Shown piece by piece: positions 3,201 to 53,822 of a stretch of DNA of 64,000 bases. The translations under genes and the position numbers were made by a program. This DNA is from Otis tarda. Taxonomy: Eukaryota; Chordata; Aves; Otidiformes; Otididae. Positions within the stretch are counted from its first letter, which is position 1. Each line of letters begins with the position of its first letter. Below the pieces are notes generated by a model. That model had not been told where the DNA came from, made no database searches, and saw only the letters and a program-made list of their open reading frames with translations. Location: contig CM048556.1 in assembly GCA_026413225.1 (NCBI GenBank), forward strand, positions 22,173,115-22,237,114, read 5' to 3'.

Positions 3201-5262
3201 TTCCTCCCAGAGACGATGGCTGCTCCTGAGACCTCTCCTCACTCTGCTTCTCTCTTCTCGCTGGCCTAAAATGCCTCACATACGGAGATCAGCTTGAATT
3301 ATTTATAGGGCCTGTTACTTTCAATTTGTTTCCAGTCTCTGCTGTTGAGCATCTCGTAGGTTTGACTGGAAGATCAGCTCAGTGTCTCATGCAGCCCTGC
3401 TGTGTTAGTGGCTTCAAATCCTTCCTCTGTGAGGGAAAACTAGAATTTCATTGCTCACAACAAAGCAAGTTACACACGAGTACTCGGCTTGCATTCTGCT
3501 CAGGGATTCCCAGAGTCCTTCTCCAGCAGACCACATAGCTCTTCAGGTTTCAGCACCACTCACTAACATCAAGAGAAGTTGCAGAGGGGTCTAAATAATG
3601 CAGGAGCCCATCTCTTCTTTTAAACACAGCTGATACACTTAGGAACCTCTTTCCCTCTGAAAATCCTTAGGATTTAGGGCATTTCTTCACAGCCAAACCA
3701 CAGTGGAAAAGACAGCAAACAGATTATTGGGCTGTATGAAGAGGAGGGCACACAGTAGGTTGAAAGAAGTGGTTGTTCCATTTTTTCAGCCTTCATTAGA
3801 CCAGATGTGGAATGCCATGTCCAGCTGTGGAAGAGCTAGAGATGTATGTCACATCCGCCTCTGAGAAGAGGTGTTGCTGAACCAGGGCAAGGCCACCAGC
3901 ATGGTGAGGAGGGGCTGAAGGAGCCGGACTTGGTCAGCCCAGAGAAGAAAATTTCAGGGGTACTTAGGAGTCACTTTCCCTAGAAGATTACTGAGGTGCA
4001 CAGCAGGATGATGAGAGACAAGTCAGAAAAACCTAAAAAAAAAGGAAAGTCCCAGCTGGATAGAAGCTAAATATTACTATAAGGATAATAAAGCATTGAA
4101 ACAGTTTGTCCAGAGAGGTTGCACAGTCTCTGTCCTTGAAGGTTTTCAAGACCTACCTTCAGAAATGCCTCAAGTACCCTCATTTGAATTCAATGTTGAA
4201 GCTGCTTTGAGCAGGAGGTTGAACCAGAGACCTTCCAGCCTGACTGATTCCATGTCTGAAAAACTCATGTACAAAAAAAAAATATGTATTTGTCAGCACT
4301 GAGCTTTCTGCTGAGCTAAGATGCTCCTGGCACTTCAGCGAAAGCCAGCTGGGGTCTGTGTCTCTTGGGGCTGGCATTGCCCTGGGCTCTCCAGCAATGG
4401 CCATGCTTGCGGTGCTCCTTCTGAAACCCCTCCCTACAGAACAGCCTTTCCTGCTTTCGTGCAATATCCTGAACTGAGAAAACTTAAGTTTCACTTTATG
4501 CTTCTGCAGATTCTGAGATCCCCCAACCCCACCTCCAGCTCACCACAAAACACCAAGGAACATGAGTGATTTTCCCAGCAGGCCCACTGCTCCATGGTGC
4601 TGCAACCCTTAGAGATGCTGCCTGCTGAGCAGGGAGGGAAGAGAACTGATGAAATTCCCTTTCCTGGAGGACAATCTCCAATACTTCATTTCCACTTAGA
4701 GATGGGAAGGGAGCTGAGGAAGTGGCCAGGTTTCAGCCCTGACGCAGGAGTCCACCTTAGGGCTGCTCTTCAGCAAATGTCTCCTTGCCTTTCCAGCACT
4801 TCTTTGAAGGGGTCAAAGCCCGCCTGGCCCAAGGGGTGAAAGAAGAGGAGGTCAGCTTCCAGCTGGCCTACAGCAAGCAAGAGCTGAGGAAGGTGATTGA
4901 GAAATACCCTGGCAAGGAAGTAAAGAGAGCCCTTGAGACCCTCTACAGGAAAATCCACAAGTATCTCTCCCCAGAGGAAAACCTCTTGCCGGTAATGGGA
5001 GCATGGTGTGGGTGTAAGGGCACAATGTCTTGCAGGGTTCAGGACTGCAAAGCGTGTGTCGCGGTCACGGGCTGATGGCGGGAGCCAACAGTCTGTTTTT
5101 CCCCAGGTGGTGTGGCATGCTATGGAGCAGGAGTTCCTACGTCAGTACCAAGAGTTTGAGGACCTGATCCAACGCTGCTATGCGGGGTCAGGGATCACCA
5201 TGGACTTCACCATGGAGGACTTGCTGAGCTACTTCAACTCCATCACTCGGTCCAACCTGTAG
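234..5262 (+). CDS. EXOC1 (Sec3)-like exocyst subunit, C-terminal part (5' end outside window)
   Basis: Seven exons splice in frame: 234-344, 667-737, 1351-1591, 2080-2263, 2693-2892, 4797-4991, 5107-5262. Together they give 385 residues plus stop, and every intron is GT/AG. The product resembles the C-terminal half of exocyst complex component 1, which tethers secretory vesicles at the plasma membrane. Recognisable blocks are [50 protein letters not shown] and [18 protein letters not shown], in the same order as in human EXOC1. It differs from my recollection of EXOC1 at many positions. In birds EXOC1 itself is expected on the human-chromosome-4-like part of chromosome 4, away from NSDHL. 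I therefore infer a diverged paralogue rather than EXOC1 itself. The first acceptor (233/234) has a weak pyrimidine tract; an in-frame ATG at 219 could instead begin a short isoform. Family call is firm; paralogue status is inference. Confidence 0.85.
3720..4262 (+). mobile_element. Degenerate CR1-type LINE 3' fragment
   Basis: This stretch in an intron of the EXOC1-like gene reads like the 3' end of an avian CR1 element. Phrases such as 'ggttgaaccagagaccttcc' near 4216 and the earlier 'cagagaggttgcacagtctc' match the usual CR1 tail wording ('ggttggaccagatgacctcc'-like). The element is in sense orientation with the host gene, 5' truncated and heavily mutated, with no open reading frame left. 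The left boundary is uncertain. Confidence 0.6.
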
Positions 5263-5786: not shown

Positions 5787-9403
<3,617 letters not shown>

Positions 9404-10362: not shown

Positions 10363-10743
10363 GAAGGACTGGGGGGTTTTCAGGGAGAGCAGTTCCCTGG
10401 CTGGCCACGCTGCCGTAGCAACATTGTCATCATGGAAACAGTGCCGGATGGCAGAGAGGGCTCTTCTGAATCCTACAGTCAAAATCCTCTCTAGAAATGA
10501 AATAATCAGTAGGTTTTTTTCTGCTGGCATTTCGCGAGAAATCCAGAATTCTCCATGGCACGAAAAAAAAATGCAAAGCCCTACAAAATTCGGCATGTGA
10601 GATTGTCAAAAGCCGGTACCGGCAGCGGCCGTAGGGGTGACAGCTGCTTTCAGCTCGTGTTTGTGGGAACTAAGAACACGAGCTGCCACGGGAGAGAGCC
10701 AGGGGCACCTAGTAACCTCCACCTGGCGAACGGAGTCCCGGGA

Positions 10744-11018
10744 AGGGACCCAATGGAGGGGACCCAATGGAGGGGACCCATGGAGGGGACCCAATGGAGG
10801 GGAACCAATGGAGGGGACCCATGGAGGGACCCAATGGAGGGGACCCAGTGGAGGGGACCCATGGAGGGGACCCAATGGAGGGACCCATGGAGGGGAATCA
10901 ATGGAGGGGACCCATGGAGGGGACCCAATGGAGGGACCCATGGAGGGGAATCAATGGAGGGGACCCATGGAGGGGACCCAATGGAGGGGAATCAATGGAG
11001 GGGACCCATGGAGGGACC
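10744..11018. repeat. Minisatellite of a 12-14 bp purine-rich unit, about 20 copies
   Basis: Tandem array of variants of GGGACCCAATGGAG and GGGACCCATGGAG, with occasional GGGAATCAATGGAG units. Alternation of long (aatgg) and short (catgg) units suggests a higher-order repeat of about 26-54 bp, copied as a block near the right end. The array is open in several frames on both strands, which creates long artefactual reading frames. It lies between GLOD5 and the ACOD1-like gene. Confidence 0.95.
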
Positions 11019-12151
11019 CCACGAGCAGAGTCGCGTGCCGAGCGGCGGCTGCTCTCCAAGGTGCTGAGCGCCCGCGGCGGGGCCCGGCCCTCCCACGGGT
11101 GGGTCCTGCCCACGAGTGGGAGAGTGCTGACAGCGGCATCCCGCTCCCACCAGCCCTACCCCAGCTTTTTCCCCTCTCTCTGATGGCCAGGGCTTCCTTC
11201 TCCCCAGCCAAGTGTGGGTGCCAGCGGATCCCTAGGGATTTCTGGCGTGGGATTGTAGTTATTGATGGATTGCTAACACAGATCCTGCCCAGCTCAGTGC
11301 TGCAAGTGTCCTTTCCTTCACTGAGCTCACTACCATAAATATGTTGGTGGAGAAATGTTTCCTTTTCTTAATTTTAAGTGTAATTTATCTTGGAGCAGCA
11401 GCAGGAAGGAGGACAACGGCTCTCTTCTTATTCAGCCCGAGAGGAGAAGGTAGGGACTTTGGTGGCACCATATTAATTGCTAAATTCCCTCAGTGACACA
11501 CAAGCTGGTCTATAATTTTCACAGGCCATTTTTTTTTCCTTGGCTTCCCTTGCCAGGGGTTTCAGCCTCATAATGAGTTCAGGATATGAAACATTTGCAG
11601 TTTGAAACTGGAAATAACGAGTGAGGCACTTTCCTGGGCAGGGATACTGAAGGCGTTCCCAGGGTCCTAGGGTTTTAGAGGAAATAACATGAATGAAAAC
11701 AATCTCAGGTATGCCTTCAGCTCCTAGATGCTCTGGAAAAACCACTTTCTGCTTCAACTGATAAGGGGCCCAACAAAAGGCAAGCTGGACCCTACCAGCC
11801 TTCCTGTGCCTTCCCTTCCTCGTTTTACACATTGTCTGCTGAAAGGTGCCAGGATTGCATCTGATGGGACAGCCAGATGAGGATTCAAAGGGCTTCTGAA
11901 TCTTGGGGAAAAAAATGTAGCCTGAAACCCAACAGAAAAGTTATTTTTTTCTGCTCCAGCACCAACAAGTAAGAGGCATTAGCTCCCTCCTCTCCTGCTC
12001 AGCTTCACTGCTACCTGGCAGTGGTGCAGCATGGTGCAGCAGGCACGGAAATGAGAACATTGGAACAAATGATCAGATTAAAACCAAAAACCTGATGGTC
12101 TACACAACACAGCATTAAATCTCTAAGCAGAAAATTAATTTACTTCAGTTC
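11019..12151. other. Intergenic stretch between minisatellite and ACOD1-like 3' end
   Basis: Nothing recognisable as coding. Immediately after the minisatellite about 100 bases are very GC-rich. The rest is ordinary unique-looking sequence with short open frames only. Confidence 0.4.
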
Positions 12152-13473: not shown

Positions 13474-16400
13474 TCACAGGCTGCAGGCCAGCTGGGAACT
13501 GTCTGACAGATTCTCCAGGTTGTCCACCATAGTGATGATGGTTTCTATTTTTTCTTCTGGAAGCACATGAGAGGCATTGGATCGAAACTTCTTCAGGAGC
13601 GATTCAGTGCTCAGAGGCTTCCTCCAGTGCCCATAGAAAGTGTCACATTTGCCCGTCAGGATGTCCCCACTGTGCAGGAGCAGGGCCACCTCTCCGTACA
13701 TCTTGTCAAAGTTGGCCACGTTATCTTCAGGGTGCTCCACCACCACTTTGTCCAGCAGCTCCCTCAGCTCCTGCCGGTGGATGCTGCTCTCTGCGAAGGA
13801 GCCGAGGCCGACTTCACCATCCAACAGGGCAGTGCAGGCGTTGAACTGGAAGGAGTGTCTGGCCTGGTGTTCAGAGCTGGGGAAAGGCCGATTGATGTAC
13901 TTTGACACCGGGATCTTCAGCACAATGGTGCGGATCAAAGAGGGAGAGAAGGACCCTGCGTAGTTGATGAAGAGGTTCCGGACAGATAAGGCGGCATCCA
14001 CCACCCAGTGCATCCCCAGGTGGGCTGGGAATCGCTTGAAAGCAATATCCTGCTTCTCCAAGAGGAACTCATGATGGTCACTCGGTGTGGACAGTGGTTT
14101 GGGCTGATAGATGCTGTAGAAAGCACTGAATCCAGAGCAACCAGGGATGTCGTCCAGAACCAAGGGGTTAGCCTCCATCCCCCGAGCGGCCAGCAGCGCT
14201 GCTTCGAAGCCCAGGCGAGCAGCATTTCCGATGTGCAATGGCTTGGCCTGGGTGGCGGCGTTTGCCATGGGTGCCCCTGCAAGCGACGCGGCAATGCCCA
14301 AAGCGTGCGCGCACTGGGCCGTGCTGAGGGAGAGCAGTTTGGCAGTGGCCGCAGCACTGCCCAAGGTACCGACCACCGAGGGAGGGTGGAACCTAAAGGG
14401 GAAATTGCAGATATGAGCATCCCTGCCTGCTTGGCACCTCGCACCTCGCCACCCAGTCCTGCCCAACTCAAAATTTAGCCATCTGAAAACTAAGTGTCTA
14501 CTTGAAACTTCATTGAAGAAAACAGACTGAGCTCAGCATCTCCAGAAAGCAATTTTTAATTTTCCCTAAGAATAAGTGGCTTGGCTTGTGCCCATAGAGC
14601 CAAACTTTCTCCCCCCAGAGGAACAAGGTGGCCTCATCCAATGTGCCCAGGGATTGCAGGTCACGGGAGGGACCAGGGACCGCGCCCACAATTAAGCTGT
14701 CTGTGTGGCTGTGGGCCACGGCCCATCTTCCTGTGCTCTTGCCCTGGCTGGTTTAGATGACGACACCGCAGGCTCAGCGGTAGTCCTCCTGATGGCTATT
14801 TTTGAGGCAAGATCACCGGAGGTCACCAAACACTCATCACCTCCAGCAGAACTGGCATTTGGCTCTCAGTAGGGCTTTACCCTGATCCTGAGTTCACCTG
14901 GACTTGAACTGATGTTTGAAACTCTGAGTAGGAGGTTAACAGACCCACCAACCCTCTTCCTACTCGGTGAGGAAAAGGAGGTTTACCTTTTGGGAATGTC
15001 GTGAGCCTCAGTGGAGAAATGCATGAGCCTTCCCTGCACTTCCAGGCCCACGTTAAATGCCAGCAGGAAATCCTTGCCGTTGGGTTTGGTGCTTGGAGGT
15101 AGCATCTGGGAAGCTGCCAGAAGAGCTGGCAGCACGGCCCCTGACGGGTGGGTAGCAGGGTGCCAGGTGTCGTCAAAGTCCATGGAGTGAGTCTGCCGGA
15201 GAAACGGAGGTAAGGACACGCTGCTGTGGAGGGGCTGGAAGCTGAGGGGTCCTTGCTGATAGTGCTGAGGCTACGCCTATAACAACACCCACCCAGTCAC
15301 CCCGCGGTCCCCACGGGGGCTGTTCGGTCCTTCTAAAAGCAGTGTGCAAGACTGCAGAGGAGCCCATGACTTCTTGTCCCCCGTTACCCCTCCCAGTCAC
15401 CAGTCTGCTTGCTGTGGTACTGGCTAGTGTCTTAGAAGGCACCACAAAGCAGAGCTTCTCCTGGAAGAGCCTGCCTTACCGCAACGCCGTTGGTGAACGC
15501 GGCCAGCGTTGGGGAGAGCTTCACGCCTGGCTTGCCGTAGACAGAGCTCACGGCAACGGAAGAGTACAGCTCCTGTGAAAGGGAGGGAAATTCAGGTGAG
15601 GACGGTGAGTGAGACAGTGATGGTGTGACGCCAGAACATCCCTCGCAAGGCGAGTGTCCTACGTCAGCCATGAAGTAAGGCTGTGGTGGTGATGTCAGGG
15701 TGGGGACCACAGAAACACACGAAAACGTGAGGATGCTCCTACCCGGCAGTACTGCAGAGCGAGGTCGAACACTTGCGTGGTGCTGCCCACGAGGCCAACG
15801 CCAATGCTGTCCAGGATCATCCTCTTGCTTCTGTGACGGACGACCTTGGACAAGTGCTCGGGTCGGACTGCATGGATGAAGGAGGCAAAGCTGCTGGTCA
15901 CGGTCTCCTCTGGAGCGCTCCTGGCCACCACTGCAGCACCAAGAGAGAGGGGAGGGGGTAAGAACACATGTGGGACACGTGCTGATGGCTCACAGGTCTT
16001 CACCCTCTGGTCTCACTGAATTTATTGAAGGGCAGAGGCAGAAGGAGAGTGTGGGACCTGCCCAGCATGTCCCTTGGGTCACAGGGCTGCATACAGCCCT
16101 AGAGACCTGGGAGGTGATGTACACCTTCCCTGTGCTGTCCCAGGCCGTGAGCCTCCCCTGGAAATGCCATGCGGACCCAAAGTCACCTCTTGTGTCTTCA
16201 GGCCCTTGGCGGAGTCCAGGAGAGGAGCACCACGGCTCCACGCTCACTCTACAGACAGTAGAGATACGCTCCTGGAGAGGGACCAGAGGATTCAGCCTCT
16301 GCTTAAAACGAAGACTGAACCAGAAGTTCTCCTGAGCTCGGCGGCTGAAGGGAAGTTTTCTCTGAAAACACCCTTGCTGGTACACAAGAAGCAAGACGTG

Positions 16401-22696: not shown

Positions 22697-25600
22697 ATGG
22701 CGAGCGCGGCGGGTTTCGCGGCCGTCTTCTACAGCGAGCCGGCGGCGCTGGGGCTCCTCGCGAACGTGGTCAGCGCCTTCCTCCTCTGCCTGCAGAACTT
22801 CGCCGTGGCGCACACCAGCCTCCGGCCGCAGGGAGCAGAGGACATCCTTGCAGGTGGGTGATGCAGCTGGTGGGGGATACTGGGGCTGCTGGTTGGAGGT
22901 GAACTTTCCCTGAGAGCCCCCAGCTCTTTGAGAGTCATCCCCCATGGGCCAATGGACAGCATTGGTGGGATGGGCAGGGAAACGTGGACATTTTCCAGAG
23001 TACAGAAGGTCTGTGCGGTCCCAAGGACAGCTGCTCCTCCTTCCCCAGAAATTGCCAGGAATCTGGTCCAAACCTTTCATGCGCCATTCCCCTACCGTCG
23101 TAGGCCCAAACCGCTCCCGGACCTGCCCACCGTGCTGAGCATACCAAGGGGTTCGGTGGCCACACACCAAAGCTCAGCCCAGAGATTTTTCATAAAGCTG
23201 GGAAGAGAGGGGAAGATGGAAGCTTCTTCACAAGAAGGCTGCGGGACCTGCAGTGGGGCAGCCCCCAGAGCTTGGGGCTGCAGCACTGCTTCCTGCAACC
23301 CAAGCTTTTTCATGGCTTGCTTCCTACCTGTCCTGTTCATGTGTCTCTCAGGTGTCCATCTCATCCTGATTGGAGGCTTTGTCCAGCTCCTGGCAGGATT
23401 TCTCGCCTTCCGGAAGTATGACCACCTGGGAGGTGCAGCCTTTCTCACCTTCTCCGCTCTGTGGAGCAGTTACGGGGCTACGCGCATCATCACAGCCTCT
23501 TACCCCTCCGTGCAGAACATAACGCTGACCTCGGGGAACGCCAGCCACCTTCTGCCCGCCGGCACGGCCCACCTCTCTGGCAGCCAAAGCGCGGTGGCCG
23601 GGCTGGTGGCCTACATTGCCATTTCCTTTATCCTCTCCTTCTGCTCAGCCACGGTGAACTACATCATGCCCTTCATATTCGGGGCCATCGCACTTGCCCT
23701 GGTGTTTGAAGCAGTGGCGCTCTTTGGCCAGTGGGCCCTGATAGTGTCAGGTGTCATTGAGCTCATCATCGTCTTGTGCGGGCTGTACGGAGCGGTGGCT
23801 CTCCTGTTCAAGGGCATCACGCAAAGGTACGTCCTTCCAGGCTTTGGGAATCCCCTCTTCAATGTCTTGCTGCTGGGGTCCGCACAGAAAAGCTCTTCCA
23901 AGGCCATTGGGGAAGAAAAGAAAAAGAATACGAAGTATGCCGAGCCAATGGCCCTAGGCAACATCTGCGATACCATCTCTCCCTTTTTATTTGCCTTTTA
24001 TTTCTTTGGGTACATGAAGGACTTTTGTGTTGGAGCAGCGTGGATATCCATCATCTCCAGCTGCCAGCTGCTGTCCAGCTTCTACAGTTATCTGAGAGGT
24101 GACGTCTACCACACCACCAAGTTTGGTGCCCACAGCCTCTACTGGCTGACGATGGCTTGGGAAGAGTTTACACTCACCGCCTTCCTCGGGCGGTCCGAGG
24201 CTCAGGAAAGCAGGCTGGGAATGTTTGGAGGGTGGTTCTTCCTGGCTGTTGCCTGCATGCTCTTTCTGATGTCAACCCACAAAGACACCCTGGAGATGCT
24301 GCTAAATGCTTCATTCATCATCCTGACGACCGCCGCCATCCATCAGATCCCATTGCCAGCTGCTCACATCTTCCTGGGGGTGGCCTGCAGCCTCTGCACT
24401 GCTCTCTCCATGTACGCCACTTTCGCCAGCCTCATCAATTCCATCGGGGAGAAGGCTCTGATTCCAATTGGTGCCCAGGCTCTGTCCAACTCAGCTCTTC
24501 AAACCACGCTGATGGCTGTCAAAACCTGCTTCACAAGGGCCAAGAACCTCCCCAGCGGCACCAGCGCTGAAGTGCCAGACGCCTTGTTCTACATCTGCAA
24601 TGGCCTGGCCGCGGCCTCTGCCATCCAGGGCAGCCTCACTGACCCCAGCAGACAGCAGCTCTCCATACCCTCCGTGCTCATCCCAGGAGCCGTGATGCAG
24701 CTGTACGTCTGCAGGATCCAGGTTCAAGGAGGGAGGAGGTTTGGTTGCGTTCTGCCATTCTGCTACGCTGCCTTCTGGGGAGCATGGACCTGGCTCCGGT
24801 TTGCAGGTAACGCAAGGTCAGGGTTATTATTTTGCTTACGCAAAAAAAAAAAGCCCAACCCACCCAGGATGTTTTGGAAAGCCCAACCCACCCAGGATGG
24901 TTTTGGGAAGTTTCAGATTGCTTTATCCAACATAATTCCTTCTCCCATGGGGTTCAATGACACCAGGTCTACCAATATTCCTTCCTGGAAAAAGGCAAAG
25001 ACCAAACATCCCAGCTTGTACTCACCTCATCGATTGCCGTTGCCGCGGTCACTTGGTGCTCTTACAGCTATAGGAGTCTAAGTTGCGTCTTCCACTCCAA
25101 CAGACACCAAGATTCCCCTGCTAAACCACTGTGAGACAGCGCTCAGACTGTCTCTGGGCTGCTATCTCAGAATAACAGCTCAGGAGATGCTTTTGAGGCA
25201 GTGGAAGACTCCAGGTTCTGGATTTACCCTTTAGGAACCTGGAGCAACTCCTCTTGGCTGGTCATGGCCATGAAAGGAGATTTCAGAGTGATGAGCCTGG
25301 GCTTTTAAAAGCCTTGTTTAGCTCCAGGTGGGCTCCATGTTCATATAGCCTCGTGCCAGGCCCCATTAAAATGAGCACCTGTGCAGAAAGTTAAAGCTAT
25401 TTCTCAAGAGGCATGGCAAGAAGCTGTCAATGTTCTCACCCAAGCCCTGTTTATTACCAGCTGGAGCTAAAATCATCGGCTCTTTTGGCTATCCTTCCCC
25501 AGTTCTTCAGTTAATGCCTCACATGCAGAAGCAATGGCGTTTGGTGTGGTAGATGTTCTTTACAGCGGTCACCATCAGTTGGGTGACGGGTCGTTCTGTT

Positions 25601-28600
25601 ACGCCGCACTTAATGGTTTCCTCACCACCAAATCTGCCTCTCCCATTTCAGGCCACTTGCTGAACATCGGTCCGGGGAACAGCGAAGGATTCACTGCTGG
25701 TTCTGTTGCCTTTTTGGTGCTCAATGCTTTCTTGATTATTTTAGGTAAGTGCTAGAACCACATGCGATTGTTTGTTGAGGGGTATCTGGAGCCAGATCAT
25801 TAATCCCATCTGTGGTCACTCTGTGGTGGAGATGACAAGCGAGGGAGTCTCGGCTCTCTCTGTCAAGATTAAGCAAGAACTGAAATGTTTTGCCCACAGC
25901 CAGTAACAGAAGCTGAGCTGGGCTTAGAAGAAACAGTCATAAGGGAAGAACATTTCAAAGAAAACAAAAGGTTCAAATAAGGTGAAAGTGTTAGACCGAC
26001 TGGGCCACTGGCAGATCTCCACAGTCACCCTCCAGCCCAGCTGCTGTAAATCAGAACCTTTTTGGCTGCCTGAGAAGTGTTTTCCATGTGAGCACAGCGT
26101 ACTGGCAGAGTCAGGGTCTGGCAGCTCGTCTCGTGAAAGCTGAGGGCTGAACAAACCACGGCCGTACCCCTCTGTTCCCTCATGAGTGGGGAAGTCACAT
26201 CACAGACTGCTCCGTTTTACCAAATAAGATTAAGTTGATTTACGAAGTCTTCCACTGTTTCACACACATTTTTATGGACCATTCTCCAGTGTGAGTCCCT
26301 CTTGTTTCTGTTTCTTTTCACAGCTTCCTCTTTCAACGTGCTGCTTCTCTTCGTGACCCTCGCAATGGAGCTCTTGACCATTTGTTTTCTGCTCTTCACG
26401 TTGGAGAACCTCCCTTTGCCATTCGAAAGTGAGTTTTAGGTGAACTTGGTCCCCAAACCTTCACCCGCAGAGCCTGGCAAGGGGGTCCCTGGTTGGGGAG
26501 CAATGTTCTGCACGAGCCCAATATGGGAAAAAACAAGTAGGAGAGTTTGTCTTCTCTCCCTACAAGACTGGTGTGTGTGCAGGCTACAGATGTTGAGCCT
26601 TCAGGCTCCACGACTGGAGGAGGAAACCTTTCCTTTTATCACCTCCAGGTCCATTTAGGACCGCACACTCAGGTGTGGCTGATACTGCTGCATCAAGACA
26701 ACCTCCTGAGGTTCGGCACGGTCCTGCTTTCTAGCAGATGTTCAGTGATGTGAGGTTTGGGATGAACTAAACATGCCACCACTGTGCATGGCTGTAGTTC
26801 CCTTGAAGCTTTGGCTTTGCAGCAAGTGAGAATTTCATCTGTAATTACATAGAGTGCTTTAGCAAGATGCTTTGTGGAAGCTTTTCCACCAGGAGAAAAA
26901 AAAAACCTCAAACCAATAAAAGCCGTATGGCAAAAGATGCACAGGTAGGCAATCTCGGTAATTCCTTGAATTTTTAGACCCACAAATATGCTGGACCGCA
27001 AACGTTGCATGACAGGAAAGGCTGAAGTAAGTTTGCAATGCTGGGAAGTCATGAGGCACATAAGAAAATAAAACTTTGTCATCCCCCTTCTTGCCTTTGA
27101 CTCTCTGGGGTTTTTTTCCAGTTACGATCCTAAGCATCCTCAGCTTCATCTGCTTCTACGGAGCAACAGCGTCACTTGCAAACAGCATGTTTGGGAAGGA
27201 TCTCATGATGATGGGACCCCCTCTGCTCACAGTAAGAGACTTTGCATGATGGTGTAGCTTCCCTGGTCAGGAGGGATGTCCTGGGGTCTCTGGTCTCTCC
27301 TGGGGGAGCTGAGACTTCCACTGAACGTCCTTCCTTCAAAGCCTTAGTGCCATTGTAAATCCCGGTCGCAGCATTTCTGCAGGGAGCTGTGAGGTGAAAA
27401 TAAGCTCTCGTCCATTACGAATAACATGTATGGAAACTTGGAGATGGGGCAGGGACATTTACAAAACTCCTACCTCCGAAATGCCCATCTCCATCATCCC
27501 GTGGAATTAGCCATCTCCAAGCCAAGAACTGTTGACAGACTCAAGTTTTACAGCCCAGAACCTTGGGGGCAGGGAAGGAGGGAGTTGAAAGTTTCCCGAA
27601 GCGGACAGCAAGAGCTCCCCACCGGATCTGTTTAAGCTTTAAACTTTTTCCTAGCGCCTTGTATGTCTGAGCAAGGCAGTTCCACCTAACTGGGCTGATC
27701 GATCTCACAGCTCTGATTCCTGCCGCGGAGACACATTTTTGGTAAATCAGCGTTTCTAACCACGGGGACTCATGAGAAAGCACTTGAAACTTGATCTCAC
27801 TCAAATTCCTCTGGATTTAAGATTCCCAAGCAGTTTCCTTAGGTCACTTTGGACAGCAGTTATTTCTCCAGGGAGCAGTCACTGTGCTGGGTGGGATTCA
27901 TCTTCTGTAATTTTAGGCATCAGCGGTTCAAACGTCTGCCCCTGAGCTAGGCTCCTTGACTTTCTTTATTACTGGACAGAACAGATCACTTCTGCCTTGT
28001 GATTCATCTCACCTCTTTGGGTAAAGCGTCCCTAGAAGTGCTGCCTCTGCCCTGTGACTATCAAGGGAGCACGGCCCAGTGAGACACTTGCATTTGGGTG
28101 GACTGAATCCTACCCTGTGCTTCACATGTTGGCTTATTCCCACTATAATTGTTTTGTTGCCTCCTGATTATCGCCAGGTTGAGAGCTCCAAGAAGGACAC
28201 CGAAGATCCTCCACCCTGCATCTGCCCCAAGTCCCACTGCACGAGCGGCTTGAGGACCATCGCTGACTTGCTGAACACGGGGGCGGTGTGTGGGGTCCCG
28301 ACGGACACCGTGTACGCTTTGGCAGCCTCCTGCAAACACCCTCAAGCCATTGAGAAGGTCTACAGAATCAAGGTGTGAATGCAAGGCTGTCGTCTTGTTC
28401 CGTGGATCCTGCTTGGGTCCCGTAGATTAGTTATGTATGGCAGCAGAAACGGGAGCCCCTTGTTTCTCGTTGTCCCAAGACTGGGAATTTGACCACGGAT
28501 AGAGTTTAGGAGCAGCCACACCAAAACCTCATGGACTGTTTTCTGAGCCGAGCAACCTGGGGTGAAGCATCCTCTGCTCTGGGCGTGGGGCACCAGGAAT

Positions 28601-31508
28601 TAGACAGCTACGTCCTGCTTCGCTGGGGCGGGGGGCCAAAGCACAAACCCAAACTGGAACAGCCCCAGCGCTCGTCACAAGCGGGTCCGCCCCTGTATTT
28701 GTCCCCCCCGCCTTACGAAGTGCTGAATCAGAATCCCGGGTCTCAGTTTCCCCAGACTTTTGGAGACACTCAGCGCTGGACTCAGACCCCAAGTTCGCAC
28801 CTTCAATACAACTTTTGCAGCCCGGCCCCGTCTGTTCTCCATGAGGCAATTTCCTGGCTAGCCTGGAGAAATAAGCATAACAGACGATCTCAGCTGGCAC
28901 TTAGCGTGAACATCGGCAACAAAGGCAGTCTTTTCTGTCCTGCTTTGGTGCCAAGGCTAACCTTCCCTGCCGATGAGATAATATAAACAGAATGTAAATA
29001 CATGCCCAGTTCCTGAGTCACTTGGCCCCGCTGAAACTGATGTCAGCTGGGGACTGAAATGACACCGCTTTGTGAGCTCCTTTTATTTTCCCCTCCACAT
29101 CATCGCTCATTTCACAGCAAGCTTATTTCAAAGCACCGGAGAGCTGAAGAGGTGGTCACGTAAATGTTGGGTTGGTTTCCAGGGATTAGGCTCTCCTTCC
29201 GTTATCCTGTCGTGAATCGGAGGGTTTGACCTTGACTTACACCAGCATAAGTTAGAACAAAATCGGGCCCCGGGTCTTTAAGATGTTAAAAGCACCAATA
29301 CTGAGCAGAGCATCGCCGCTCCTGCGTTGGTTGTGCCTAAAGCGGGGGATTTGGATGCATCCCGCCAAGATCCCAAGAGCAGATGGCTACTCTCTCTTCT
29401 TCAGTCCCCTCAGCCCCTGGGAAGCACACAAACCAGGGATCCAGTGGGCTTCAATCTTCCCAACGCAAGCTTTCTCTCTTCATCTATTCTTTCCCCTCCT
29501 CTCTTCCTGGTTTTTTTTTTTTTGCAGGACAGGCCTCAAGAGAAGCCCATCTGCATCTTTATTTCAAACCTGGACCAGTTGCGAGCAGCTTCTCCCCCCA
29601 TCAGCCCGCTGCTGTGGGAATTCATGGAAAATGTTTACCCTGGTGGCGTCGGCTGCATCATCAAGAAAGGAGAGTGGCTGAAGAAGTTAGGTGAGATGAA
29701 CAGGACAGCCCTTCTGTCCCCCTTTTGTCTTTTCAAGACAGCAGGTCTGCAATCCACATACCCCTTTGGATGTCAGTGGGGACAGACTCTGTTCGTTTTA
29801 TCCCGAGAAATCCTCTCTGGGGCTCTTACATGTCTTGGTAAATGTTTAGCACAGGGTGTTAAAGAGCTGGAATGACTCATGAAGAGTGTGAGCCAGCATG
29901 ATGGTTTCCTTCACCCAGTCAGACTGGAAGGAAGGGAGGCTCTCCAGCCTGGGAGGGTCACCTCTCGCAAGCCCATAGCTGTTCGCTAGGAATGAGCAAC
30001 CCTGGGGTGGAACACCAAAGACAGACAAGAGGTCCCGGGGCGGAAGGGGTTCTCACGGGCATCCCTTCCCATCGTCTCTTGCGTCCTACCTATGGATAAT
30101 GCCAAAACTCTGTGAGCAGCGGTATGATTCACACTCAAACCTGGATTCTGGGAATCAATGAAAACATTAAAGACTGAAGAAACAGTAGGGGTTACGCATG
30201 CTTCAGAGGCACGGGTATGGGACAGGGTGGGAGGGCAGGCAACGGTCAGAAGGAGTTAGGTTCTGCGATAAAGATAGATCCTGCATCCATGAAGGCAGCT
30301 ATGCTGAGCTCCAGCCATTGGTCTTTTCCTTTTGCCTCTCCAACGTCCTCTGTCCTTCAAGGGGTCGGAGCAGGGTACACCAGAGTGGGAACGCAAGACA
30401 GTATCATGATCAGAGTGCCCGACCTGACTGTCCTGGTGCACCTCATCGACATGACGGGACCCTTGGCAATCACGTCGGCTAATCCCAGCGGAGAGGTTGA
30501 CAGCACGCACCACGACATGGTCATCTCGTGAGTACCCTGTTCACCAGCCCTCCTATCGCAGTGCAAACCCCCTCTCAGGGGTGGCCAGCACGTTTAGGTG
30601 GTGTACCAATCGTGACTTGATGCCCTGTGTGGAGGGGAACTTCAGCACAACGTGATATGAGGCACTGTCTAGAGTTGCTGGATTTTTTTTCCCTACAGGC
30701 GTCTTGGCCATAAGCTGGAGGGTGTTCTCTGTGACGGAGAATCTGACGAGGTGGTGGCATCCACTGTGGTCAACTGCACAAAGATTGATGAAAGTGAGTG
30801 TGAGAACCTCCCTTCCTACGGCAGCTATAGCATTTTCCTAGGACGTTTCCATTCCTTTCAACGGTATCAATCTGACACCACAGTGTGCTCCAAGAGTAAC
30901 AGTTCCTGAGCGCCTGGACATTTGCAAACGTGTTGATGAAGAGGAACAAACGAAAGATGTCCTTGTTGGACCTCTGTGTTGACAGAGAACAAGGCAGTGA
31001 GGAGAAACACGGTTGGGCAAGGAAAATCTGCCTTACAAGAGCAAAAATGCTTCAAGTGGGAGGGTGGATGCTTCTGAAAGGAAGGGTGTGTGCTCCTGGT
31101 AGAGCACCAGAATGAAGGGGTTACAGGAGCTCCACAGTGATGTAACAGCACAAGCTGAGGGTGTCAACCCAGCTGGATCTGGGTTGACATTTGAGTGGGA
31201 TTCTCTAGTGGAAAACTAAACTCTCGGACAAAGTGTGAGGTCGGGGTTGGTAGCTGTGTTTGCTTTCTGACAAAGTTTCCAGCCCTCTTGCTACACAACT
31301 TTATTATTAGGCTGTCCTGAGCATCTGGATGGTTTTACCGGTCCAAGATGTTCCTTTATATCCCCATCCCTTTCTTTCACCCCTTGGGATTATCCTAACC
31401 TTTTCATTCCTCCTCCGGGAAGGTGGCATCACGATCGTGAGAGAAGGCTGCATACCAGCAGGCAAGGTGATGCAGATATTTGAAAGGGTGAAGAGCAGGG
31501 TGGTCTGA
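22697..31508 (+). CDS. Gene A: triple SatP/YaaH-like membrane protein fused to a YrdC (TsaC/Sua5) domain
   Basis: Ten exons: 22697-22853, 23352-24806, 25652-25744, 26324-26428, 27122-27231, 28178-28372, 29528-29690, 30362-30527, 30699-30793, 31423-31508. All are in phase, giving 874 residues. The start has a strong Kozak context (GCCATGG). Residues 1 to about 600 hold roughly 18 hydrophobic segments in three blocks of six. Blocks 1 and 2 open with EPAALGL and EPMALGN, like the NPAPLGL signature of SatP/YaaH/GPR1/FUN34 acetate/succinate transporters. Each then has a segment such as GGFVQLLAGFLAFRK that resembles the family's second helix. Residues from about 610 form a YrdC domain with GVPTDTVYALAAS, KDRPQEKPI (the KxR motif), ITSANPSG (the SxN motif), and ASTVVNCT with IVREG near the C-terminus. 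Bona fide YrdC enzymes make threonylcarbamoyl-AMP for tRNA t6A. The role of this fusion is unknown to me. It is probably a multi-pass membrane protein. Confidence 0.88.
24843..24899 (+). repeat. Short direct repeat in gene A intron 2
   Basis: The phrase 'gcccaacccacccaggatg' occurs twice, about 29 bases apart, just after the exon 2 donor. It is probably a local slippage duplication of no functional consequence. Confidence 0.7.
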
Positions 31509-31888: not shown

Positions 31889-31894
31889 AATAAA
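31889..31894 (+). terminator. Polyadenylation signal of gene A
   Basis: AATAAA about 380 bases after the stop codon at 31508, followed within 30 bases by a T-rich stretch typical of a downstream element. Confidence 0.6.
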
Positions 31895-43034: not shown

Positions 43035-46000
43035 TCAGAAGCGAGTGTGATTCTCGCCGCCGACATCGGGGGACGGCGCCGGCACCGTCTCTCCCGAGGC
43101 AGCCCTGCCCACCCCGTTGTGCACAGCGTGGCCGTGGTTCCGATGTTCTTCCCGGCTTTTTGTGGAGCAGGTGCCACTGTTAGGGGCCGACGTTTGCTTC
43201 TTCTGCACCTGCTCCAGTATCTGCAGCACCTGAAATGAGTAACCACAGTTGTGAGTGGGTTAGTAATTAGGGGGAAGCACTCATTTCTTCACCAGCTATT
43301 GAAATAAAGCTAGTGAAATATTGAAATTCTTTCTCAAGCTCCGCGCCTGGGCTCAGCCTTGGCGTTACGCTAAGGATTTCTCTCTGCCCAGAGGCCTCAG
43401 GTGTAAATGGAGAGCCTGCCCCAGTCTCTCCTCGCGCGTTCCCCAGCAACGTGCTCAGCACAGAGACGCAGTGGTGTCCAGAGGCAGGATCAGGACACGG
43501 GCAACACAGGGCTCTGTTTTTCTGCTCTCTCACACCACCCACCATGATAACTCCTCATGCTGCCACAGATTTCTTTACCTCCTTACAGAACCGGGAAACC
43601 CCCAGTCTGAAACCGACTTAATGGAGAGGGGCAAAGGGAGCAGAAATAAAATCAAGACCGATTTTACCTGAGACTTGGGGATGATGCCGACTCTGAAGAA
43701 CCCTATGTTTCCACTGTCGATTTTGGTGCAGTCCACGACGGTGGAGGCAATGTTTTCTGGAGAAGGCCCATCACAAAGAACTGCATCCACCTGAAGAGCA
43801 ACGGATGTTCACACCAGGTTCCCCTCAGGCACTTGGGAAAAGAGAGGGCAGTTTCTCCCTCTCAACAGCAGGTCATTATCATCAAGGGCAGCTCTGCTCC
43901 TTCCTGCCTCACGGTATTGACACTAACAGCTGAATTTGGAATGAATCAACTTAATAAAAGCAGAGAGAGAGCTCTGTGTGGGGTGTAGGTCAGCAGTACA
44001 ACAAAGACAGCTTTACATCAGCTGAGGAGCTTTGAAGAAGTCCCATCCACAAGCATAGGTGTAGAAACCCAGGTTTTTGAGGAGCTAGAGGTGGAAGATT
44101 TGTACTACCTCTTGTTTAAAACTGCCCTCACCTAAGCTGCCAGGAATACACAAAATGTAGCAGTCAGGATTCAGCAGGGAATCCGGAGTGTGAATCCAAG
44201 TGTGAATGAATGAATCCTGCGTGTGAATCCAAGACAGCCACGCGAATGGCCATGACCACTGTGCTTCCAGAACTTAGGGAAGTTCTAACAGCCAGCAATA
44301 TTTTAGAGCTTTGGCACCAGTTTTAGACCAGCTTCAGCTTTAGAAGGGAATCCCCCGTGTTCTGACAGCTCAGCGCTAGCCGGAGCCCTGGCGCGTTCAG
44401 GCGTCAGTAGTTTTACTGCTCACAAGCAAAGCAGCATTTTTTTGTTGCTCATATCATTCTGTGTTGGAAGACAAACTAACTCACGTTGCCAAGCCACAAC
44501 CATAGTGTACAAATCAGAAGAATTTCAGTTTCCCACCAAGTTCTGTATTTTACACTGTTCTTTCACTAGGACACCGACATGAGGAGTGTCCACAGCATGT
44601 TTTTAATGAGATGCTTTCCCAGATTCTTGATATCACCTATTGATTTGCCTACTGGAAACAAAGCGGGTGCGTTCTTCCATCCCCACATCTTTTGGCACCC
44701 GTCGGAACAAAAAGCCACAGAGCCCAAGTTACCTTATTTCCCAGCTTGGCGTAGACTTGGTTGTGGTGGGTTGTGTCTGCCTCTCCCGTTGGGTTGGCTG
44801 ATGTGACCACAATGGGGCCGACCTGGCGACAGAAAAACGGGAATAAAAGCTCTGAGCGGGTTTTGTTGTATAGAACTGATGACTTGGACTCTGAAGTTCA
44901 CTTGTGAGTCTCTGCGATTCTAAAAAGAACTTGGTGTGATTCACCCAGGTAGAGACGCCTACTATGGAGGCAACCACAGTCCCACCAAATCTGTGTGCAA
45001 GTGACTAACGCCCTGATGAACTGGGGTTCACTGACGTTGATCACAAAAGAACATTTTGTTTTCCAGCAACAGCAATTGCCAAAGACCTACAATGCCTGTC
45101 CTTGAAATGAGGAGAACACGCCGGGTATCACAGTTCCTTTGGCCACATTCTGGACCTTCTGAAGTTATCCTGGCTTCAGACAAGCCAGATAAGCTTGCAA
45201 TAAAAATGTTCTGTGTAGGAAACCAAAGTGCCTGTTAATTATATCTTTTCTGGTTTTCCGACTCGGCAGTTACTCCTTTTACCATCTTTTCTGCAATAAA
45301 ATCAGCTACCTGCTGCCAGCATACCCGCCCCTTCTCAACGATATTTTTCTTGTGGGAGTTACTCATTTTAGCACTTTTCACTCCCCAAACCTGTCTGAAC
45401 ACGCTAGGATCCTCGCTTCATTGAGAAAAGAAACAGAGAGGAGAGGTGACATGCCAAGAGGGCTGACAGAGTTCTGGCCTCTCGCTGTCCTTCTCCCTTC
45501 CAGCAGGCCAGGGGACCCGGGTGCAAGGGGCTGACACCAAGCCTGCTTCCTGGACAGTGGAATGGCAGGGTCTGGTGGCCAGCGCTGCTGGGGCGTGCGT
45601 GCTCCGGCCACTCACCAAGTCGATGAGGTGCGTGGTGACAGAGCAGTCGGGGATGCGGATGGCAATGCTCTGAGGGGTACCGACGTATTTAGCTGAGTCC
45701 CTCATTCCCAGGAAGTCCACCCATTCACCTGCAAAAGGAAGAGTCACATGGCACTATGGATGTTCATCAGTCCAAACACAATGCTCTTGCCAGAAACATC
45801 GCCACGGAGCACGTGGCGTTGCAGGGATGCATGCCTCAAGCTGAGGTTTCAAAGCCAAAGCTCTCCAGCGAGCTCGGAAGCAACAGCATTTCCTCACCTC
45901 TGGGAACCACCAAGCTAATAGGAGATGGCCAGGCAGCCTCCATGAAGTCCCAGAGGAGGGGAGTGAACAAATGCTTTGCGGGTTCCAGTTGCTTTAGGCT

Positions 46001-49000
46001 AGAAATCCAGAGCGACATGGGGCGATCCTGAGCCTGGCGCTTGGACCTGGAAAAGAGGCAAGAAAAATGAGCCTGGAAGTAAGATGGAGATTTATTTTCA
46101 AGCTGAGAAGGAAATTGCGGTGGCAAGGCCTAGAGTTAACACAAGGTGTGTAGGCTCTGGCCCAGGTCATCAGGCTGTAGTAAAAGTAGGACTGTCCAAC
46201 AGATGGCCTGACAGGAAGGGACATTAAGGACTACTCCCAATCAGGAATGGCTACTCCAAATCAAACTTTTAGCTTCTTGCGTAGCGATGGGTAGAAGTCC
46301 CAATTGCCCAAGTTCTGAGGAAACCCCACCTGTACGAGGGGCCCCGGGTGCTTACAAAAGCACAGCTAGAGGCACTGTTAGACACGAGAGGGGTTTTGGT
46401 TGTGACAAAATGTACCTACAAAAACGTACAATAACCCCCAGCCCCATTTGTCACTTCTTTGGCTTTTCTTGTGATATCCAAGCTACCCGGCTCTATCACC
46501 TGCCAGGAGCCTTCAATATCCTAGAAGACGATTCCAGCTCAACTGTCTCCTTCCCTCATTCAGATCTTCTCCCCCAGGCTCATCACCTTGCTCTTCCCAT
46601 GAGGGCTAAGCTACCTGTCTCACTGCTCTCGATGGCTGCTGTAGCCGGTACTCAGCAGCCGCTGTAAGTCCCAGAGGCTTGTTGAGACTAGCCAAGGAAG
46701 CTCTAGTGGGGCAGCAAGACAAATACTTACTGGTGAGCTTTCTCCACAGCATCGGGCCGATTACAGGCTGCCACAAGCACATACACCGTATCCGTGGGGA
46801 TGCCGCAAGTCCCTCCGTTCTTCAGGATATCTGTTGGCATGTGAACAGGGCAGAACCCCGTGAGTCACTAGAAGTGAGGGGCTGTAACTCACGGAAGAGC
46901 TGTCACAGACAAAACAGCCAATTTGGTGCGCTCATCTCCTTTTGTCAACTAACAAAGTATTTCCTCTGACAGAGCATTTTCTAGCATTCTCCAAGAGGAG
47001 ATCTGGCATTTAGGGGAGTTCTGGGCCACGTTCATCAGGGCCAGAAGTCATTCAGCCCTGTGGGGAGAGCAAGCACCACGCACTTGCTCTGCTTTCTCTG
47101 TACAAAGCTTTCAGCGGTCGCCCCAGCCTGGAGGATGGATGTATCTCAGACTGGATGAGCAGACAGGGATATGATATGGGAGAGGCAGCAACAAATTCAC
47201 TGCTAAACCCAGCTCCTAACAAGGAATTGGTCCCATTTCCCCCACAGCCTATTTAGCTTCTAACGACGCTTGTAACTTGGCCCACTTTGTCAAAATGTCA
47301 TCAGATTATCAGGATTTCCACATCCGGATTTGAAAAATGTTCTTTCAATAATGTTCTGCTACAAAACCTCCCAGAACTGACCCTCTCCCCCCACATTATG
47401 TCCTCTGTATTTCCCTTACCTGCAATTCTCTTGACTGAGGAAGCTTTCCTGGCAGGCAGGTGAAGGCACTTGGTCGTTCCTCCCCCCACACCACTAAGCT
47501 GCACAATGGGCCTACCCATTGGTAAGCAGGAACCCTCAAAGGTGCTGTTGAAAAGGGCAGACAGGAAGCAGTAAAAGCTGACCAGGCCAAAGATGAGAGT
47601 GGCAGCAATGTCATAGCCGGCTGGAAGAGCATGGACGGCATCCAGCAAGAAGCTGATAGCGATGAGAAAGAAAGTGAGGGAGTAAAAGAACCAGGCGATG
47701 TTTAAGAAGAGTGTGCAGAAGACAATGAAGCCATTGAAGAGCATGAACGCAATGATGCCAACCGCTGTGTGGAAGCTTCTGGTGGTGCCATAGAGGCCGC
47801 CATATCTGGTCAAGCCCCAGATGATCCACATGACAGCATAGAGAATGAAGGCACTGCTCTCCAAGGTTTTACCCCGGGCAAAGGCCACCGAGCCGCCTAG
47901 AAGCTTAAGGATCCCACCAGCTACCACTACCCATGGAATTACAACAGTAGCAAGCGGAGCCTGTGGGTCCCCCGTCCTTGTGAGAGCAAAAGAAGCGAGG
48001 ACGCTGCATGCGTAGCCAAGCACCTCTGCATCTGCATACTTGGAATACCCTAGGTAGGGAGTGTGAAGGTCAGCCCCCTCACGAAGCTTCAGAAAACTGC
48101 TGCGAGCAAGCAGGGCCTTCACAGCACCCCTCCCTGTGGGGATCTTGGCACTGGCTTTCACATTGTACAGGTGAATCAGAGTCATCACGGCTGAGGCCAC
48201 GAAGATGGCCACATCCACGCCTTGGGGTCCACCTTCAAAAAACCCCTTGGGACGGCAAGCTAGTGCGATGCAGTAGGCCACATAAAACAGCAAATATAGG
48301 CCATCCACTGGGCTCTTAAGAGTGAGAAAAAGAGCCAGGACAACAAAAAGAATGGAGAAAACCACCAGGAACGGAGTAGGGAAAGATGGCTCCTCTGGTT
48401 GCCAGATTGGGTACAGAAGGCAGTAGCCTCCAGCAAATTTCAGGATGGAAGTGAAACCAAAGAATGTAGCCATCAGCACATCCATCGCACGGTATGACAA
48501 AATGCAGATGCCAATCTGGTAGATCCCAGCCGCCCACAGCCAGGGCACTTGACCGATAAATAGCTGGCCAGTGACGCCCAGGAGCCTACAGCCGAAGACA
48601 CTGGCAGACAGCATGTTCAGGATCAGACCGGTGACTGCAAAACGGTTCATGCTGCCGCTGGTGGACTGGATCTGCTCACGGGTCTTTTTCTTGGCCAGAT
48701 CCGTGCCAGGCAGGGCAATTTTCTCTTTGCTTAGGAAATAGAGAATCCTTCCCAGAGCAAAATAACCACCGACCAAGCAGATGACCATATAATTGCAAGC
48801 CACAGCAGAGGAACCGAAAGCTGTGCTATAAAGCATGGCAACTTCATGAGCACTGGCGAGCGAGACAGCAGAGGCAATCATAGCTAGGATGACCTCTCCA
48901 CAAAGGAAGCCCACCGCTGCAATAATGAGCAGGGCCAAAGTAAACGTGACCAGGCCAGGCACCATGGCATTGCGGAAATCACCAGCGTCGTTCAAAACTC

Positions 49001-50448
49001 CTTGCCCTCCCAGGATGAAGACCACTCCATAGCCGCACCAGAACACTGAGATGGTCAGGCAGAGAGACAAGAACAGGGAGGCATTTCTTAGGCTTCTCCG
49101 AACTCCTGTGAAACAGATGACCACGGAGACACAACTGTGATTTCAAGACAGTAGGACAGCATTCATTCTAAAAAGTTAACCTAGCACTGCCAAGTCCACC
49201 ACCAAACCATGTCCCTCAGCACCACACCTACATGTTTTTTAATGGAACCATAAAATCCAAAGTACTCTCAGAAAGCCTGGGCAATCATGTATTCAGTCTG
49301 TTAAAACTCTCTGAGATCCTAGTAAAGCATTCGTTCAAAACTAACATTGATTTCTTTGGTTGCCTCTACAGGAAAAAGCTGTGACAGTGCCATGCTCCTC
49401 GAGGAGAACGAATCAGTGGTCTGGCAAGGCTGCCGGTTCGTACAAACCTGTTGGCAAAGCAGACCAGAACATGCAAAGCTCTAGAAGGGGCAGGCCTTGA
49501 AGGCAGCCACCCTCTGAGTCTTACCTGTATACGCCAAAAGAGACGATAAGATCAACAGAAGGACTCCTAGAGCCGTGCCGGGGATCAGAGGGGCTGCTCT
49601 GGGTAAACTGTAGAAATGCACTGCCAGTAGGAGTGATCCTGTGTGCGACAAGGGAGGTGGGAAAAAAGAAAGAACTTGTAAGCTTTGCCCAAAACACCCA
49701 GGAGAGAACCAGAGTGGCAGGAGCAGGGAACAGAGGAAAAATAGCAGCACAAGATCCACAAATAAGGAAATTTAAGGAGCTGAGGGGGGTGTATTGTAAC
49801 TTGGTTTGTGTCCAAGGTCTCACCTCTTTCTGGGTGCCTATCAAGAAACTTGGACTTAATCATGTTTGAAAGGGCTCCCTTGTTGTCAGCTAAAGGTAAA
49901 AGTCAGCTCTCCGATTCCAGTCACACAAAAGGCAGACAGACGCACGCACGCTTTCCAGATGATCACATAAGCCTTGCGCCTACAGAAAACTAGCCTGAAA
50001 ATGGAACGGGGAGCACTCAGCAAGACAAAACACAAAGGAGCAGACGAAAAGGAGTGAACATAGAAAACAGAGCTGCAGGGAAAATGGCCAGAAAAGAGAG
50101 GGAAGTGCATCCAAATCAAGATCATTTATGAAAATGACTACCAAAAAGTTTTGATTTGCTTCCCACCCAGAGATGGATCAAGCACAAAAGTTCAGGCCAG
50201 CACTTTAAAGCCAAGACAAATATTTTGTTGGCTGCTGAAACAGGCAGAGGGATCCCTGGATCGAAAAGCTTTACCCAGGCAGAGAGGATTCAGAGTAAAC
50301 AAACTCCTTAGCCCCCTTTGCGAAGGGGGTGTCCATGACAGCCAGTCCCAAGCCCATCCTCCCGTGCCAAGAAGACTCGATCCCTACCTGCGGAAATGCC
50401 CAAGAGCCCTATGGAGGAATGCAGTGATTCAGCTTTTCTGTCTGCCAT
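43035..50448 (-). CDS. Gene B: paralogue of gene A, triple SatP-like membrane protein with a divergent YrdC domain
   Basis: Nine exons on the minus strand: 50448-50388, 49638-49525, 49105-47420, 46830-46731, 46046-45898, 45728-45616, 44822-44733, 43790-43668, 43229-43035. Phases agree throughout, giving 876 residues. The protein starts MADRKAESLHSS and has about 18 hydrophobic segments in three groups of six up to about residue 590. The third group contains VLGYACSVLASFAL and GGILKLLGGSVAFARGKTLE, which resemble helices 1 and 2 of SatP/YaaH transporters. A YrdC domain follows: GIPTDTVYVLVAAC, RIPDCSVTTHLIDL, VVTSANPTGEADTTHH, ASTVVDCTKID. Compared with gene A, the KxR motif reads KRQ in my alignment, so the Arg is replaced by Gln, and EKP becomes DRP. 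The SxN motif is kept. The last exon adds a hydrophilic tail of about 64 residues that A lacks. Transport and catalysis are both unproven, and the YrdC part may be inactive or altered. Confidence 0.87.
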
Positions 50449-53752: not shown

Positions 53753-53822
53753 GGCTCCGGGCAGCGAAGAGAGATGCACAGCAATTTGAGGCTCTCCAGG
53801 GAATCCTGCTCTGGTCGTGACC

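Follow-up and report, generated by a model that had tools for sequence, protein, structure and literature searches.

Two convergent genes at the locus

The window analysed here is the whole stretch of 64,000 nucleotides of Otis tarda DNA, and the exons of the two genes discussed below are collected in Table 1. Gene 1 lies on the plus strand (22697-31508), and splicing of the genomic sequence joins its ten exons into a protein of 874 residues without an internal stop, across nine introns that all have GT-AG borders. Length and coordinates are exactly those given in a first-pass annotation of the DNA letters; the gene is real, intact and had been read correctly there. For exon 8, the acceptor at 30362 is favoured over the one at 30374, because the GEW-to-GT spacing (18 residues) then equals that of the paralogue.

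When the gene-1 protein was searched against its own genome, 17 places were found at E up to 1: ten in gene 1, six on the minus strand of the same window, and one at a YRDC-like locus elsewhere (C24). On that minus strand we find gene 2 (50448-43035), which has nine exons and 876 residues, again with no internal stop, and is convergent with gene 1, tail to tail. Gene 2 is an intact but diverged copy of the same ATO-YrdC type, and it goes beyond the first-pass annotation, which named gene 1 alone. In the YrdC domain, which scores 114.9 bits in gene 2, the two proteins share 47.6 per cent identity across 210 residues; in the membrane blocks the figure is 21 to 31 per cent. As a substitute for a dN/dS test we compared codon positions: the first, second and third positions differ in 38, 31 and 64 per cent of the 210 YrdC codons, and in 60, 49 and 69 per cent of the 590 other codons.

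Table 1. Exons of genes 1 and 2 and a possible polyadenylation signal, in window coordinates
Feature	Position	Strand	Content
Gene 1 exon 1	22697..22853	+	start, EPAALGL (residues 14-20), helix 1 of block 1; open frame, GT donor, phase 1
Gene 1 exon 2	23352..24806	+	remainder of block 1, block 2 (EPMALGN 23942-23962), beginning of block 3; PF01184 matches
Gene 1 exon 3	25652..25744	+	block 3
Gene 1 exon 4	26324..26428	+	block 3
Gene 1 exon 5	27122..27231	+	end of block 3
Gene 1 exon 6	28178..28372	+	linker, start of YrdC domain (T682, K705)
Gene 1 exon 7	29528..29690	+	YrdC domain (R707)
Gene 1 exon 8	30362..30527	+	YrdC domain (T797, S798, N800); 30374 is a possible alternative acceptor
Gene 1 exon 9	30699..30793	+	YrdC domain (S836)
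Gene 1 exon 10	31423..31508	+	end of YrdC domain (R853), stop codon
AATAAA, possible gene-1 polyadenylation signal	31889..31894	+	
Gene 2 exon 1	50388..50448	-	start codon assumed
Gene 2 exon 2	49525..49638	-	block 1
Gene 2 exon 3	47420..49105	-	remaining block 1, blocks 2 and 3, linker, first few residues of first YrdC helix by alignment
Gene 2 exon 4	46731..46830	-	YrdC domain; Pfam match begins (residue 622)
Gene 2 exon 5	45898..46046	-	YrdC domain; KxR reads K-R-Q
Gene 2 exon 6	45616..45728	-	YrdC domain
Gene 2 exon 7	44733..44822	-	YrdC domain; intact SAN
Gene 2 exon 8	43668..43790	-	YrdC domain
Gene 2 exon 9	43035..43229	-	end of gene 2, stop

The junction between the membrane part and the YrdC domain differs in the two genes. 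Exon 3 of gene 2 ends at residue 620, and its last residues, SSVKRIA, align where gene 1 has its first YrdC helix. A fusion within this single exon, requiring no splicing, was considered and rejected, since the Pfam match starts only at residue 622. The junction introns of genes 1 and 2 thus lie on opposite sides of the linker, and both proteins need a splice there, which supports one continuous protein.

Upstream of gene 1, in head-to-head orientation, there is an ACOD1-like gene of the MmgE/PrpD type, resembling itaconate synthase (about 13474-15940, minus strand). Its exons were found within about 13.5-15.9 kb, the first exon not being among them, and the partial protein obtained by joining them by hand has cis-aconitate decarboxylase as its top PDB match (E 2.6e-149). 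The corresponding family, PF19305, has two loci in this genome, the gene in the window and one on C1. That such a gene adjoins gene 1 in one genome is weak evidence for a shared function.

The membrane blocks and their likeness to SatP

The first-pass annotation had described gene 1 as three fused SatP-like six-helix repeats followed by a YrdC domain, and had proposed a Pfam search of the whole protein. In that search, the spliced 874-residue protein scores 43.8 bits against PF01184 (cut-off 25) and 117 bits against PF01300 (Sua5/YciO/YrdC; residues 671-855). When the blocks are cut apart, blocks 1, 2 and 3 score 34.0, 22.0 and 15.7 bits against PF01184, so that block 1 alone passes the cut-off by itself, and a profile match of an individual six-helix block to the SatP family is indeed found.

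The comparison with 79 enterobacterial SatPs by HHalign gives E values of 2.5e-4, 1.8e-4 and 9.7e-3 for the three gene-1 blocks, and for each of them none of 60 local shuffles reaches the real score, the margin being small for block 3 (22.5 vs a shuffle maximum of 20.9). With a simple Smith-Waterman alignment against one SatP, scores as high as those of blocks 1, 2 and 3 arise in 1, 0 and 4 of 200 shuffles, respectively. Reversed controls, run for all six blocks of the two genes, gave E 0.19 or worse. Block 3 of gene 1 matches block 3 of gene 2 with E 3.7e-11, and the profile built from this pair matches SatP with E 4.2e-5. The description as three SatP-like repeats and a YrdC domain in one gene therefore holds, with profile matches that exceed the shuffled controls, weakly so for block 3. 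As internal repeats, the blocks are only weakly alike (HHalign E 0.0034 for 1-2, 0.046 for 1-3 and 0.044 for 2-3).

The two NCBIfam acetate-transporter models with any match to gene 1 are AceTr_1 and PRK10659, and neither cut-off is reached (30.1 of 50 bits and 23.6 of 297 bits). A PDB sequence search with the membrane part (640 residues) gave no match at E up to 10, and profile methods are therefore needed for this part. In gene 2, block 3 alone is SatP-like above shuffles, while blocks 1 and 2 are reached by 46/60 and 41/60 shuffles; with PF01184 the whole protein reaches 18.8 bits and block 3 by itself 23.7 bits, both below the cut-off of 25.

AlphaFold models of gene-1 exon 2 and gene-2 exon 3, each computed with 17 SatP rows in the alignment, are of low confidence (mean pLDDT 52.8 and 51.1). 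A Foldseek search with the gene-1 model places five SatP chains at the top (E 0.06 to 0.2), all 86 matches having E above 0.001, and these matches are not independent of the SatP rows that went into the model. With the gene-2 model, no SatP is seen among the best 50 of 199 matches.

About 18 hydrophobic segments had been claimed for gene 1; hydropathy at one threshold shows 16 in the membrane part, along with one false segment within the YrdC domain. In blocks 1 and 2, helix 3 is expected to be a weak one, and gene 2 likewise shows 16 of its 18 expected helices at one threshold. The claimed block openers are where they were said to be, EPAALGL at residues 14-20 and EPMALGN at residues 250-256, and in the third block the signature reads VPDALFY; gene 2 has no close form. 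The exact family signature, NPAPLGL (PMC13316224), is present in none of the six blocks. Gene 1 is therefore classed as an AceTr/SatP homologue and not as an acetate transporter. At the position aligned with SatP F17, which we take to be the constriction Phe and whose distance from the signature agrees with that of ScAto1 F98, blocks 1-3 of gene 1 have N, D and N, and those of gene 2 have I, N and S, a comparison to be treated as a lead, the alignment being uncertain at such distance. SatP L131 has been equated with ScAto1 L219 (PMC9409672), and the ScAto1 variants F98A and L219A are reported to admit larger acids such as succinate (PMC13316224), so the lost Phe need not close the pore.

The distribution of charges gives an indication of the topology. 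In gene 1 the linkers between the blocks have 8 and 4 K/R, against at most 4 in any other loop of the membrane part; in gene 2 they have 7 and 8, against at most 3. The gene-1 sequons N108 and N115 follow the weak helix 3 of block 1, ahead of helix 4. This pattern would agree with protein ends that lie in the cytosol together with the YrdC domain, and N108 and N115 would then be on the outer side. Two further gene-1 sequons, N371 inside a predicted helix and N840 in the YrdC domain, are against this topology or neutral. In gene 2, N66, N578 and N872 would be cytosolic, and N66 and N578 count against it.

The YrdC domain and its active site

The KxR and SxN motifs, said in the first-pass annotation to be intact in gene 1, are so (K705-D-R707 and S798-A-N800). 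To place the remaining substrate residues, both proteins were aligned to PDB chain 6f87, which we take to be Pyrococcus abyssi Sua5; with a shift of one, all 11 named residues match by letter. In the P. abyssi enzyme, K56xR58 and S143xN145 are reported to bind ATP, and T33, S181 and R195 threonine; the yeast enzyme is reported to need all seven positions for synthesis (PMC10321239). Gene 1 has all seven (T682, K705, R707, S798, N800, S836 and R853, against T33, K56, R58, S143, N145, S181 and R195). Gene 2 has six (T633, K656, S749, N751, S787 and R804); the arginine at the R58 position is replaced by Gln658. Its loss suggests one of two things: gene 2 may act as a pseudo-enzyme partner, or what counts may be binding and not catalysis.

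As to the type of enzyme, a Thr precedes SAN in gene 1 (T797), in gene 2 and in the YRDC-like gene on C24, and we read this residue as the TsaC signature threonine described in PMC10321239. Three further positions are specific to Sua5. Of these, gene 1 alone retains P59, and N62 and H67 have given way to K711 and F716 in gene 1 and to R662 and W667 in gene 2. The top PDB sequence matches of the domain are threonylcarbamoyl-AMP (TC-AMP) synthase chains of 340-346 residues (5.3e-17 and 3.3e-16); E. coli-type YrdC and YciO follow with 1.3e-5 and 4.1e-5. The gene-1 domain stays narrowly under the NCBIfam cut-off for TC-AMP synthase (TIGR00057, 120 of 123.2 bits) and reaches 43.1 of 175 bits with the TsaC model PRK10634. 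Since these cut-offs are not attained, we file it as TsaC-like and not as a TC-AMP synthase. Those exons of the separate YRDC-like gene on C24 that were read contain KGR and TSAN, and the fused copy would therefore be dispensable for ordinary t6A.

Possible roles of the fusion

Vertebrate ATO proteins are reported to be about 900 residues long, to carry three SatP-like repeats and a C-terminal YrdC domain, to fall into two clades and to be absent from mammals (Ghasemi et al., June 2026, PMC13316224). The same paper reports the YrdC fusion in almost all vertebrate members, already proposes a ring in which a dimer takes the place of the hexamer, and suggests in its discussion that the fusion may couple import to assimilation. 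Both the ATO-YrdC architecture and the two-chain ring of the first-pass annotation are thus already published. Its statement that no function was described for such a fusion stands for the function, as far as that paper goes, and does not stand for the architecture and the ring idea. No further paper on vertebrate AceTr-YrdC proteins was found by full-text searches in an open-access library. Sections 8, 14 and 15 of PMC13316224 describe no linked convergent pair, active-site comparison or gene surroundings. What is added here is the convergent gene 2, the active sites with seven and six of the seven residues, the absence of exact NPAPLGL from the six blocks, and the ACOD1-like neighbour.

Gene 1 is almost certainly a member of this family, with three SatP/AceTr-type repeats and then a TsaC-like YrdC domain that would be cytosolic. 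Both genes fit in length and in the order of their parts, with the repeats first and the YrdC domain at the C-terminus, and no architectural difference between gene 1 and the family was found in that paper's description. With SatP and Ato1 (AceTr, PF01184) gene 1 shares the six-helix unit, a significant profile match and an EPxALG motif that resembles NPAPLGL, but it has three units per chain, an inexact signature and N or D at the position aligned with F17. With TsaC/YRDC and Sua5 (PF01300) it shares the seven substrate residues, and with TsaC the Thr before SAN; it differs by the fused membrane repeats and by having no SUA5 domain after the YrdC domain, and gene 2 differs by the missing KxR arginine. 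TobZ and HypF likewise hold a YrdC-type domain within a larger fused enzyme, but their partner is a Kae1-like domain (PMC9654439), whereas in gene 1 it is a membrane protein.

The overall explanation that we favour, tentatively and at somewhat less than an even chance, is an ATO family member in which a transporter ring carries a tethered YrdC enzyme. The repeats, the one continuous frame and the complete set of substrate-binding residues are present in gene 1. The detailed mechanism is possible but doubtful. Two gene-1 chains would form a six-domain ring resembling the SatP hexamer, the pores of which would conduct a small carboxylate or bicarbonate. At the membrane, the tethered domain would convert threonine, bicarbonate and ATP into threonylcarbamoyl-AMP or a close relative, with the low-affinity substrate delivered to it by the ring. 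SatP is reported to assemble as hexamers (PMC8471396). For t6A formation by YRDC/OSGEPL1, a Km for CO2/bicarbonate of 31 mM is reported, and bicarbonate is described as rate-limiting for mitochondrial t6A formation (PMC5951830). The fusion would make sense if the ring brought bicarbonate or a carboxylate to the tethered synthase. Side of the membrane, ring, transport, substrate, catalysis and coupling to the enzyme are what we infer here, and PMC13316224 likewise infers the ring, the transport and the coupling. Counted against this explanation are the absence of exact NPAPLGL, the N, D and N that gene 1 has where SatP has F17, the missed NCBIfam cut-offs, the loss of the R58 arginine in gene 2, the YRDC-like gene on C24, the gene-2 sequons N66 and N578, the poor AlphaFold models and the lack of SatP among the best 50 Foldseek matches of the gene-2 model.

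A fold that earlier surveys placed in microbes only is kept in non-mammal vertebrates, fused to a bicarbonate-using type of enzyme. If transport and adenylation are coupled, bicarbonate or carboxylates would be fed or sensed in a novel manner.

The YrdC domain could also be a sensor and not an enzyme, with the binding of ATP, threonine or bicarbonate gating the ring, as in a gated channel or transceptor. We consider this rather unlikely. Speaking for it are the binding residues, complete in gene 1 and kept in gene 2 save for one that is reported as required for synthesis, and the presence of a YRDC-like gene elsewhere in the genome; gene 1, however, retains every residue reported as required for synthesis (PMC10321239), and the allostery is a proposal only. 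It is for the retention of these residues that the enzyme-coupled reading is given the edge. The neighbouring copies, one with the full set of active-site residues and one lacking a single residue, allow it to be tested directly which of the two has been kept, catalysis or binding.

Distinctly unlikely is that the membrane part no longer transports and serves to anchor or organise the YrdC domain at the membrane. The inexact signature in every block, the loss from gene 1 of the Phe aligned to F17 and the gene-2 blocks 1 and 2, no better than shuffles against SatP, would all agree with such a role. However, gene-1 blocks 1 and 2 and gene-2 block 3 are still SatP-like by score, and the reported behaviour of ScAto1 F98A and L219A shows a pore altered at these positions passing larger acids (PMC13316224).

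A reading in which genes 1 and 2 would together make one mixed ring of active YrdC enzyme and pseudo-enzyme, passing a dicarboxylate or bicarbonate in view of the N, D and N of gene 1 and with a possible link to the itaconate-type enzyme encoded by the head-to-head neighbour upstream, is very unlikely.

That two neighbouring genes, one for a membrane protein and one for a separate YrdC protein, have been wrongly joined is extremely unlikely: the intron that separates gene-1 exon 5 from exon 6 has about 950 bases, in neither gene does a single exon contain a helix block together with the Pfam YrdC match (620 vs 622 in gene 2), and the gene-2 AATAAA at 46096 lies in an intron of its YrdC part, with none within about 1 kb past the stop, but frame and GT-AG sites are kept across the junction in both genes, which are collinear, the gene-2 block-3 exon runs on through the linker to residues aligned with the first YrdC helix, the gene-1 linker is located in a YrdC exon, gene-1 intron 5 contains neither AATAAA nor ATTAAA, and almost all members in vertebrates are reported to have the fusion (PMC13316224).

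The rest of the window holds several other features. On the plus strand, exons at 53808-58083 have a weak DJ-1/PfpI match (17.9 bits vs a cut-off of 26.6) and presumably belong to an ES1/GATD3-like protein, and an exon at 63795-63926, which scores 33.2 bits with the NAD epimerase family and 26.3 bits with the 3-beta-HSD family, is taken by us to be NSDHL-like. On the same strand, two exons at 1373-5259 match the exocyst Sec3 C-terminal family (26.0 and 24.9 vs a cut-off of 23.7 bits), and a Glyoxalase-family exon at 7877-7978 (29.9 bits) is presumably GLOD5-like. Finally, a G-rich tandem repeat at 10741-11019 has periods of 14, 27 and 53 bases, with about 21 copies of the 14-base unit.
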